Shown in pieces: positions 57,070 through 58,945 of a stretch of DNA of 63,671 nucleotides; the stretch's first letter is position 1; each line of letters opens with the position of its first letter. The notes under the pieces were generated by a model. The model was not told the DNA's origin, made no database searches, and was given only the letters and a program-made list of their open reading frames with translations. The position numbers and the translations under genes are program-made. The stretch lies in NCBI GenBank assembly GCA_028287445.1, contig JAQBPQ010000141.1, positions 1 through 63,671 of the forward strand, in the 5' to 3' direction. This DNA comes from Cohnella sp. (GTDB taxonomy: Bacteria; Bacillota; Bacilli; Paenibacillales; Paenibacillaceae).

Positions 57070-57119
57070 AATACCTGTTTTGCGATCCGATGGGGATTCT
57101 GGCAAAATGATGAGTGCGT

Positions 57120-57141
57120 TTTGATAAAAATTTGATAAAAT
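57120..57141 (+). promoter_or_regulatory. 11-bp tandem repeat in the agr-like cassette promoter
   Basis: TTTGATAAAAA is followed directly by TTTGATAAAAT: two copies differing at one base, exactly one helical turn apart. The second copy ends in TAAAAT, a good -10 with no matching -35. This suggests an activator-dependent promoter with the repeat as operator. It lies about 46 bp before the first gene of the cassette. Confidence 0.5.
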
Positions 57142-57186
57142 AGAACTAGACATCGTTCGGCTGTAGATACGGGGGAACTCTGCATA

Positions 57187-57846
57187 ATGAAATTCATCGA
57201 GTTTATGTTCTTCTCTACGCTTGAAAATATCGCCTTCATTTATTTCATTCTTACGATGTTCCGGTTTCATGTCCGGGAAAGCATGTTGAAGTTTATCATC
57301 GTCGCGATCGTATTAAGCCTCGTATCCAATTCATTGCTGACCGAATCGCTCCAGGCCGTATCGTCCTTATTGCAAGCAGTATTGATGATTTGCTTCGTTG
57401 CTTTTTTCTTACGAGTACATCTCTTTAACTCACTGATCATGGTGATCACCGGCTATGTGATTAACTTTATCGTTCAATGGATTATTATCGCCATGGCCAT
57501 GCATTTTAGCGGTTCTGTCGAAATCATTCCTGCCAGTCCCAAAGCATTTATCGTGCAGGCAGCTTCCTCGTCGATCATGTGTTTATTCGGCCTCATCACT
57601 TATCACCAAAAAGGCGGTTTTAGCTTTATCGACCACGAAAGCCGATCCAAGCGCAGCAAGATTTTCGTCAGAGAGAACCGGCCGCTTATTTTGTTGGTCG
57701 CTTTCTCCATCGTATTGACTTTTGTGGCAAATGTTCTACTATATACTCAACATACTCCTTATTTGATTATTTCCATTCTATTGTTCGTGGCTCTTACCGG
57801 ATTGATATACATATGCGTTAAAAGGGATGAGCATGGAAATGGTTGA
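57187..57846 (+). CDS. Seven-helix membrane sensor-like protein without kinase domain
   Basis: Membrane protein of 219 aa with about seven helices (about 5-25, 33-51, 57-75, 83-105, 118-139, 166-187, 192-211). Layout and neighbours resemble the peptide-sensing half of AgrC. AgrC would continue with a HPK10 dimerisation and ATPase domain, but this frame stops 8 residues after the last helix (KRDEHGNG). No kinase frame follows: agrB begins within its last 20 bases. A cytoplasmic loop (about 140-165, basic SRSKRSK) is the only sizeable soluble part. It could be a stand-alone receptor or an inhibitor of the LytTR protein. I know no named family. Confidence 0.65.
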   Translation: MKFIEFMFFSTLENIAFIYFILTMFRFHVRESMLKFIIVAIVLSLVSNSLLTESLQAVSSLLQAVLMICFVAFFLRVHLFNSLIMVITGYVINFIVQWIIIAMAMHFSGSVEIIPASPKAFIVQAASSSIMCLFGLITYHQKGGFSFIDHESRSKRSKIFVRENRPLILLVAFSIVLTFVANVLLYTQHTPYLIISILLFVALTGLIYICVKRDEHGNG

Positions 57847-58366
57847 GACGTTGGCCTTGCGGATTGCGGAAGCTCTCAAAAGAGTAGAGTCGGAGAAGAC
57901 GGCCAGCATCGAGGTCATGAAGTTTGCATTAGAGGCCATTCTGAATACCCTGATTACGCTTGCGTTAATTGTGATCGTGGGAATCGTAACGGGAAGTCTG
58001 GGCAGTACGATGCTCGGGTTTGCCGCTTTTGCGTTTCTCCGATTTTTTGCAGGAGGCCTGCATTTGAACAGTGCCGTGCATTGTTCCTTGCTATCCGCGA
58101 TTCTAATTTCTGCAGCTCCCCACTTTCATCTCGTAAACAATTGGATTATAATGGTAGGATCGGTGAGCCTGGCATTGATTCTCCTACTCGCTCCGGCGAA
58201 CATAGAAGGCCATGCCCGCATTCCTCAAAAGTACTTCTTTATCCTGAAACTCATTTCGGCGGCTATCGTGTGCTCCAACTTCTTTTTCTTGAATTCCACA
58301 CTTTCGATTGTATTTGCGATTCAGGCCGTTACCTTGCTGCCTTTTATAAAGGAGGTGAGACTATGA
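57827..58366 (+). CDS. agrB: AgrB-like prepeptide peptidase
   Basis: Accessory gene regulator B family cysteine endopeptidase of 179 aa. It removes the C-terminal tail of AgrD and closes the macrocycle. Catalytic residues are His79 and Cys86 in FFAGGLHLNSAVHCSLLS, with the same spacing of seven as S. aureus His77/Cys84. About six hydrophobic segments are present (for example LNTLITLALIVIVGIVTG, IIMVGSVSLALILLLAP). Starts at 57827, 57833 or 57839 are all possible. It overlaps both neighbours, by 20 bp upstream and 4 bp downstream. Confidence 0.9.
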   Translation: MSMEMVETLALRIAEALKRVESEKTASIEVMKFALEAILNTLITLALIVIVGIVTGSLGSTMLGFAAFAFLRFFAGGLHLNSAVHCSLLSAILISAAPHFHLVNNWIIMVGSVSLALILLLAPANIEGHARIPQKYFFILKLISAAIVCSNFFFLNSTLSIVFAIQAVTLLPFIKEVRL

Positions 58367-58485
58367 AACGTACCGCCGTAATCGGTATTTCTAAAGTTTT
58401 GCTCGTCATTGCAACCGTGTTTGTCAGCACTTCTTCTTTCATTTGCTTGCACCGTCCTGAAATCCCTGCAGAACTGAAACGGTAA
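58363..58485 (+). CDS. agrD: AgrD-like cyclic lactone autoinducer prepeptide
   Basis: Prepeptide of 40 aa with an amphipathic, membrane-associating leader (about 1-20, ISKVLLVIATVFV), then STSSFICLHRPEIPAELKR. The tail EIPAEL aligns without gaps with EVPKEL of S. aureus AgrD. In that register the five-residue ring is Ser25-Phe-Ile-Cys-Leu29, and AgrB would cut before His30. The nucleophile is then Ser, giving a lactone, although Cys28 is present inside the ring. SD AAAGGAGGTGAG is excellent. The ATG overlaps the agrB stop (ATGA). Confidence 0.88.
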   Translation: MKRTAVIGISKVLLVIATVFVSTSSFICLHRPEIPAELKR

Positions 58486-58511
58486 TTTTTTTCGAGTAAG
58501 GAGACAAAGCC

Positions 58512-58898
58512 ATGTCGCAACAAATTCGGCTGCTGGATCGAGACGGGAATGCTTGTACCGTGAATGTCGAAGAGCTGACCGCGATTCGACCCACGGCCGA
58601 TGGTCCCGAGTTTCATACGAAGGACGCCATGTATTTCTATCCCACCACGCTTGAAGAGCTGCAAATGCTTTTCAAGGAGTTCGGCTTTGAAAGGCTCGAC
58701 CGCACCAATCTCGTCAATCTGAATCATGTTAAAGCTTTTGATCCGAAAGCGCGCAAAGTGTATTTCGACCATCCTTGGACGAAGGACAGCAAGTTCGCTA
58801 CGGTATCGGAAGCAAATGTGAGCAAGGTCGAACATTTGGCAAAGGAAAGCACCGCGAAGTACATACCAGTCGGCAAGCCATTGTTCGATCAAGGTTGA
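58512..58898 (+). CDS. Stand-alone LytTR DNA-binding protein
   Basis: Soluble protein of 128 aa that is essentially one LytTR domain, with no receiver domain and no other module. Marks are ELTAIRPTADGPEFHTKD, FYPTTLEELQMLFKEFGFERLDRTNLVNLNHVKAFDP, close to the LytTR core in AgrA-type regulators. The first ~12 residues and the last ~20 are short extensions. It follows agrD by 26 bp after an AAGGAGAC SD and ends in a terminator, so it is the last gene of the cassette. It is the likely output regulator. How it senses the signal is not visible. Confidence 0.85.
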   Translation: MSQQIRLLDRDGNACTVNVEELTAIRPTADGPEFHTKDAMYFYPTTLEELQMLFKEFGFERLDRTNLVNLNHVKAFDPKARKVYFDHPWTKDSKFATVSEANVSKVEHLAKESTAKYIPVGKPLFDQG

Positions 58899-58913
58899 CG
58901 CAGGTTGAGGAAG

Positions 58914-58945
58914 AAGGAGGCCGAAAGGCCTCTTTCTTTCTCTTT
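58914..58945 (+). terminator. Terminator of the agr-like cassette
   Basis: AGGAGGCC - GAAA - GGCCTCTT followed by TCTTTCTCTTT. The GAAA tetraloop stem begins about 17 nt past the LytTR stop. Confidence 0.8.

Follow-up and report, generated by a model that had tools for sequence, protein, structure and literature searches.

A cassette of four genes was found at positions 57187-58898 on the + strand of contig JAQBPQ010000141.1 of Cohnella sp. (assembly GCA_028287445.1). The whole stretch that was analysed, referred to as the window, has a length of 63,671 nucleotides and is the entire contig; the genome assembly comprises 278 contigs and is 78% complete. The first gene of the cassette encodes a membrane protein of 219 amino acids (aa), abbreviated as MEM, and is followed by genes for AgrB, AgrD and a protein with a single LytTR domain. 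Judged from sequence comparisons, the cassette is a widespread variant of the agr system without its phosphorelay. The features of the locus are as follows:

57113..57142, + strand: operon promoter with a -35 region AGTGCG and an extended -10 TGATAAAATA at 57133-57142
57120-57129 and 57131-57140, + strand: doubled TTTGATAAAA, overlapping the extended -10
57187..57846, + strand: MEM, 219 aa, seven transmembrane helices; proposed peptide receptor without kinase (model, topology, orthologues)
57827..58366, + strand: AgrB, 179 aa; peptide-processing membrane protease (PF04647, E 2.6e-18)
58363..58485, + strand: AgrD, precursor of 40 aa with a predicted five-residue ring SFICL closed via Ser (TIGR04223, 35.8 bits, cut-off 19)
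58512..58898, + strand: LytTR protein, 128 aa, single-domain, no receiver (PF04397, E 7.7e-9)
58907..58942, + strand: probable intrinsic terminator, hairpin with a 16-pair stem

The open reading frames of MEM and AgrB overlap by 20 bp and those of AgrB and AgrD by 4 bp, while a gap of 26 bp precedes the LytTR gene. A preliminary description of the locus had proposed four overlapping or tightly spaced genes for a seven-helix membrane protein, AgrB, AgrD and a LytTR protein lacking a receiver, closed by a terminator. The reading frames, the family matches, the structure model of MEM and the hairpin agree with it in all these points. Terminator-like hairpins numbered two in the stretch, compared to a mean of 2.4 in shuffled sequences.

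The AlphaFold2 model of MEM (predicted local distance difference test, pLDDT, 85.4; predicted template modelling score, pTM, 0.83) comprises seven helices, from residues 2-24 to 192-211, and a tail of 8 residues. In the main sample, which consists of the best 27 MEM-similar loci (L012-L038, one per genome, the window's own locus counted), the tail past helix 7 measured 3-8 residues in all 27 orthologues. A frameshift cutting MEM off from a kinase domain, which the preliminary description had named as an objection, is thereby excluded. Since Lys and Arg are concentrated in the inside loops of these 27 sequences (8.5 per protein inside vs 0.7 outside), the loop charge suggests an N-out/C-in orientation. 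Compared to Pfam and NCBIfam, MEM showed no significant match, kinase models included, and none to DUF3021 or DUF2154 of Pfam. The outer loops were more variable than the inner ones (1.90 vs 1.31 bits), which is only suggestive at p 0.06, and the outer and inner halves of the helices showed equal variability (p 0.65).

For the LytTR protein, the LytTR domain at residues 15-106 was the sole Pfam match, and no receiver was found. Its AlphaFold2 model matched best to the promoter-bound LytTR domain of AgrA (E 6.4e-5, probability 1.00, template modelling scores 0.39/0.50). With a broad LytTR profile, the LytTR domains of AgrA were the best relatives of solved structure (E 1e-7); with a narrow profile AgrA reached 0.0028 and ranked after SEC14 chains at 0.002. 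Most of 23 aligned Cohnella proteins carry the tail KPSLFWKK or variants of it after the domain, and this conserved tail is a candidate docking site.

In AgrB, a His and a Cys seven residues apart, which we take to be the catalytic residues, were invariant in 10 aligned sequences. AgrD showed the pattern [CS]xxxx[HY]RP in all 27 loci, and a five-residue ring follows from this pattern. The first ring residue was Ser in 10 and Cys in 17 of the 27 loci, with 22 distinct rings altogether and SFICL in the window. AgrD is accordingly predicted from its pattern to be the precursor of a lactone closed via Ser in the window and of a thiolactone closed via Cys in 17/27 loci. AgrD-like peptides with neither Cys nor Ser at ring position 1 and with Lys at position 2 were seen in L159 (4507-4647), L160 (4527-4643), L059 (3857-4261), L201 (2752-2868) and L202 (2192-2326).

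Homologues of MEM were found in 45 of 60 relatives. The preliminary description had proposed to look for the same gene order in other genomes, and MEM-AgrB-AgrD-LytTR in this order was indeed present in 27/27 loci of the main sample, with a mean identity over the 27 genomes of about 43% for MEM and 68% for the LytTR protein. A second sample, chosen by similarity to the LytTR protein (27 loci, 24 from Cohnella and 3 from Paenibacillus), contained all four genes in 22/24 and 3/3 loci, respectively. In 23 of the 27 genomes of the main sample the cassette and prkA lie on one contig, at most about 25 kb apart. For the whole order, a broad MEM alignment was compared to 296 genomes (E <= 1e-8, at most 10 candidates scored per genome), and 212 of them carry the MEM family. 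Forty loci were then hand-picked across genera among the best matches listed, with profiles iterated on the same set, and 30 of these held the full set of four genes, one locus with two sets; in seven, no LytTR gene adjoined MEM, AgrB and AgrD, two had MEM alone and one was unreadable at a contig end. Within the class, 35/348 genomes matched MEM at E <= 1e-10. L203 (G530:C5) holds a full cassette and, behind it in the same orientation, genes for a complete receiver-LytTR regulator and a kinase-like protein.

Three lines of comparison bear on the function of MEM. The broad MEM profile resembles the sensor part of AgrC-like kinases over 175 columns (E 1.2e-4); for the control, AgrB, the alignment spanned 20 columns with 0.22. 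Moreover, in the genus g9 (family f9) proteins of 452-469 aa begin with MEM and contain a HATPase_c domain (three tested); they lie near AgrB, AgrD and a receiver protein of 199 aa with a GerE match below cut-off (L042, L183). A midpoint-rooted tree calculated from 47 MEM domains places the fusions in a single clade (99/97), which is joined with a free-form cassette from that genus (96/94). If the root lies outside the fusion clade, a kinase captured a free MEM domain as its input, which fits a ligand-sensing part. In the family f21, L193, L194 and L197 encode a long MEM with a kinase-like tail, AgrB, AgrD and a receiver-LytTR protein of 240 aa, whose receiver Asp is in place by eye; the C-terminal half of the long MEM showed no ATPase by Pfam, and no phospho-accepting His was seen. 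L196 of the same family misses the final receiver-LytTR gene, and in L195, L198 and L199 a comparable long MEM is preceded by a separate kinase gene (Pfam on two). These seven long-MEM loci (L193-L199) form a second clade (94/92) with long branches in this midpoint-rooted tree, and a direction from kinase to free MEM is not claimed.

The third comparison concerns the covariation of MEM with the peptide ring. After removal of prkA, AgrB and LytTR distances, the differences in the ring still followed those in MEM with a partial r of 0.39, and none of 2000 permutations, which ignore the tree structure, was as high; under the same treatment, AgrB gave -0.09 and LytTR -0.19. Because of the neglected tree structure, this covariation is good but not final sequence support for MEM as the receptor. 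The distances of MEM and AgrB correlate with r 0.83, compared to 0.06 with prkA. Since the two follow each other and not prkA, it looks as if the signal half of MEM and AgrB had been exchanged or diversified as a unit. Over the 27 loci the mean distance was 0.57 for MEM and AgrB and 0.32 for LytTR. Altogether, since its relatives are the sensor domains of kinases elsewhere and since it covaries with the peptide ring, MEM is probably a peptide receptor. Free-standing MEM genes also occur in rows without AgrB or AgrD among them, at L045 (9847-14220, G047:C71, six genes) and L046 (2730-4503, G039:C17), some kb off a full cassette; possibly they are eavesdropping or decoy receptors.

Whether a phosphorelay partner lies elsewhere was a further point of the preliminary description, which had named a dedicated AgrC/AgrA pair as a finding that would speak against it. 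On the side of AgrA, this objection found no support: six Cohnella genomes, each assembled in one or two contigs, gave 28 LytTR matches, and no receiver-bearing LytTR protein was found among them. Three of the matches were fused to an ABC ATPase according to Pfam (about 390 aa, in three Cohnella genomes; L174, L175, L176), one was a 210-aa frame holding a 128-aa protein, and 24 were frames of at most 162 aa. Since the latter are too short for a receiver plus LytTR, none of the six genomes showed an AgrA-type partner. The window's genome contains two LytTR proteins, one AgrB and eight HATPase_c_5 matches.

On the side of AgrC the objection retains some force. In many Cohnella, a divergently oriented kinase gene adjoins the cassette, encoding a protein of 450 aa that contains SPOB_a, HATPase_c and an RGQRHDFLNH box (Pfam on L065). 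Such an AgrC-like kinase was intact at 13/27 cassettes of the main sample and broken at two (G008, G011), while in 5/27 a copy of 44-47% identity lies elsewhere in the genome. For the last seven, none was found in three, a kinase domain only in three and a relative of 39% elsewhere in one. At E <= 1e-10, no such kinase was found among the 21 candidates scored for the window's genome, which is 78% complete, nor in G009 and G014 (28 scored), and one was present in the fetched stretch of only one of the 40 order-wide loci. Since the cassette is whole in 27/27 loci, also where the kinase is broken or not found, it does not need that kinase. In Cohnella endophytica (L071, 1322-5494), three tandem AgrC-like kinase genes were seen beside the cassette.

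The promoter of the operon had been described as repeat-bearing, which holds for the promoter and not for the repeat as a conserved element. The extended -10 TGATAAAATA was matched at 9-10 of 10 positions in 18/27 orthologous upstream regions (5% of shuffles) and at 8 or more in 25/27 (36% of shuffles), with the remaining two at 7. The doubled TTTGATAAAA showed 10/10 in the window and 1-6/10 in the other 26 upstream regions and is thus not conserved. With three mismatches allowed, the pattern GATGCGTTTTC-N9-TGATAAAATA occurs in the window's own genome at the cassette only (reversed control 0). In 4/8 genomes it was found exactly, as a single copy at the cassette operon, and in 7/8 with at most three mismatches. 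A common regulon with this pattern was rejected, as beyond the cassette promoters only one site with three mismatches (G028:C8:20753) appeared in the eight genomes. Direct repeats of 9 bp upstream of the -35 region, with the -35 position set by the spacing from the -10, were absent (mean best match in 27 promoters 5.07/9, shuffled 5.08). Accordingly, both the doubled TTTGATAAAA and such repeats were rejected as LytTR sites, as neither is kept in the 27 promoters. Upstream of L014, L018, L019 and L021, a conserved block TTTATACCATTAAA...GGAGTATT lies between the cassette and the divergent kinase and may be the kinase's own promoter.

The cassette is not restricted to chromosomes. Brevibacillus phages Abouo, Emery and Davies and Paenibacillus larvae phages Paisley and Harrison carry, in a row, a gene for a membrane protein (Emery and Davies have two of them), AgrB, a gene of 39-43 codons and a gene for 118-122 aa. 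The MEM, AgrB and LytTR profiles matched all five phages and the AgrD profile matched Abouo, Emery and Davies; by Pfam, LytTR lay above the cut-off of 22.6 in Abouo, Paisley and Harrison and below it in Emery (19.1) and Davies (16.9). Integrase or recombinase genes are annotated near the cassette in all five (L159-L161, L181, L182), and the fourth gene is annotated there as hypothetical or peptidase despite its LytTR match. In IMG/VR, three loci were found, Abouo itself and two further contigs with all four genes, one of them AgrB-first; further searches of this database gave no additional loci. A plasmid of Paenibacillus rhizovicinus also holds the set, with the fourth gene recognised by our own LytTR profile only. 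A search with the window's MEM found nothing in phages and plasmids, and one with its AgrB nothing in plasmids; with the MEM of a relative, one phage and one plasmid were found, and with its AgrB nine phage records.

Compared to agr (agrBDCA), the cassette has AgrB, AgrD and the AgrA-type LytTR fold in common, as well as the ring register of five residues, two more and then Pro, which is also that of S. aureus AgrD. As in S. aureus agr, the receptor, AgrB and the peptide form a variable half, and the regulator is more conserved. The cassette differs by its receptor without kinase, its regulator without receiver and the order receptor-B-D-LytTR, so that AgrC (sensor plus kinase) and AgrA (receiver plus LytTR) are both missing. 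To our knowledge, signalling in every characterised agr-type system relies on phosphate transfer from AgrC to AgrA.

The second system for comparison are the LytTR regulatory systems (LRS) such as HdrRM and BrsRM. According to the parts of PMC6193735 that concern their layout, a single-domain LytTR regulator is paired with a kinase-less membrane partner inhibiting it, the regulator gene lies directly upstream of the inhibitor gene, most partners contain DUF3021 or DUF2154, and direct repeats of 9 bp with a distance of 11-13 bp immediately precede the -35 of the promoters. The cassette shares with them the single-domain LytTR protein and the kinase-less membrane protein in one operon, and it differs by agrBD, by MEM as first and LytTR as last gene (27/27), and by the absence of DUF3021/DUF2154 and of the repeats. 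The idea of the preliminary description that agr and LRS are joined here is supported for a module without kinase and receiver but with agrBD, and it is weakened by the gene order, the reverse of that in LRS, and by the missing repeats. The cassette would act somewhat in the manner of an LRS, with a signal produced as in agr. It is a strict member of neither, since it lacks two defining domains of agr and does not have the gene order, the membrane family and the promoter repeats of an LRS.

In the open-access literature, kinase-less relatives were found mentioned only by Hargreaves 2014 (PMC3901668), and there in phages, although a description elsewhere is possible. Its passages on Davies, Emery and Abouo note AgrB, AgrD and membrane proteins without an ATPase domain and leave the regulator unnamed; all three phages match the MEM, AgrB, AgrD and LytTR profiles of the cassette, the LytTR match being the next gene. 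According to a 2025 review (PMC11945551), the agr sets of phages lack AgrA. One set without AgrA is agr3 (agrC-B-D) of the Clostridioides phage phiCDHM1, which differs by a full-length AgrC; PMC3901668 compares proteins of 453 and 445 aa, of which this AgrC is one.

Based on these observations, we consider it rather probable that the cassette is a peptide quorum-sensing operon complete in itself, with a receptor that controls a LytTR factor without phosphotransfer. AgrB would cut and cyclise AgrD to a hydrophobic lactone of five residues, SFICL in the window's genome. MEM, as the receptor, would bind this peptide from outside, and its conserved inner face (FRF, GGFSF and the charged tail) would then directly control the LytTR protein, which would bind DNA with no phosphate being passed. 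Between an inhibited activator that is released and a bound activator that is activated, release seems somewhat likelier; release from the membrane could nonetheless be only one possible way for the receptor to control the LytTR protein.

Several findings weigh against this self-contained operon. The MEM model matched none of the folds in the PDB (best E 0.37), the hhalign probability of the match between MEM and the kinase sensor was only 54.5%, and the narrow MEM profile of 27 sequences gave a non-significant E of 0.25 with AgrC-like kinases. LytTR distances barely track those of MEM (r 0.19), and the ring covariation carries the reservation of its permutation test. Two of the 24 Cohnella loci, L067 (6983-7387, Cohnella sp. 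CFH 77786) and L074 (7001-7387, C. laeviribosi), hold a LytTR gene directly following prkA without MEM, AgrB and AgrD in the stretch, although C. laeviribosi also has a full cassette (L077). Together with the LytTR-less loci among the 40 order-wide picks (L135, L140, L141, L144, L146, L147, L152), this means that the pair of MEM and LytTR is not obligate in cis. Finally, with the AgrC-like kinase beside 13/27 cassettes, the peptide could have two readers in many species, MEM and the kinase.

Carried further, this last point leads to the explanation that the peptide is read by an AgrC-like kinase, adjoining or elsewhere, with MEM as an accessory for decoy or immunity and the LytTR protein doing something else. 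The Cohnella kinases and their copies, the AgrC-like kinases beside AgrB-AgrD in genus g9 and the two LytTR-only loci fit this explanation. We nevertheless regard it as unlikely, given the intact cassettes of G008 and G011 with their broken kinases, the three genomes in which no kinase was found, the lack of a receiver-LytTR partner in six Cohnella genomes and the near absence of the kinase from the order-wide loci. An exporter or an AgrB processing partner instead of a receptor would explain why MEM adjoins AgrB in nearly all loci read and why their distances run in parallel. This role appears quite improbable in view of the tandem MEM arrays without agrBD between them (L045, L046), the MEM-kinase fusions and the ring, which covaries with MEM after removal of AgrB and not the reverse.

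To a similarly small degree, the cassette could be an LRS that happens to carry agrBD, with MEM as a plain inhibitor sensing something else. The layout common to both speaks for it, with one operon combining a single-domain LytTR protein and a membrane protein that lacks a kinase, as described for LRS in PMC6193735; the reversed gene order, the missing DUF3021/DUF2154 and 9-bp repeats and the covariation of the ring with MEM speak against it. A decaying, functionless remnant of agr might be seen in the missing kinase and receiver and in the two Cohnella loci where LytTR is the sole gene left, or the sole one ever present. However, four open genes in 27/27 genomes, at about 43% identity for MEM and 68% for LytTR, and the occurrence in phages and on a plasmid make decay most improbable.

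The self-contained operon, if true, would represent a conserved agr family without a phosphorelay and thus another route from a membrane pheromone receptor to DNA, and it would explain agrBD loci that seemingly lack AgrC and AgrA. MEM is without a significant Pfam or NCBIfam model although its relatives occur in 212/296 sampled genomes of the order. As a circuit of four genes and one peptide, the cassette could easily be moved into a laboratory host. We give about even chances to the wider picture of a phosphotransfer-free branch of agr, in which a detached seven-helix receptor acts on LytTR, which spread over the order and which, in phages beside integrase- and repressor-type genes, could report lysogen density in an arbitrium-like manner. 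For phages, it would offer a second kind of communication by peptide that can be tested.

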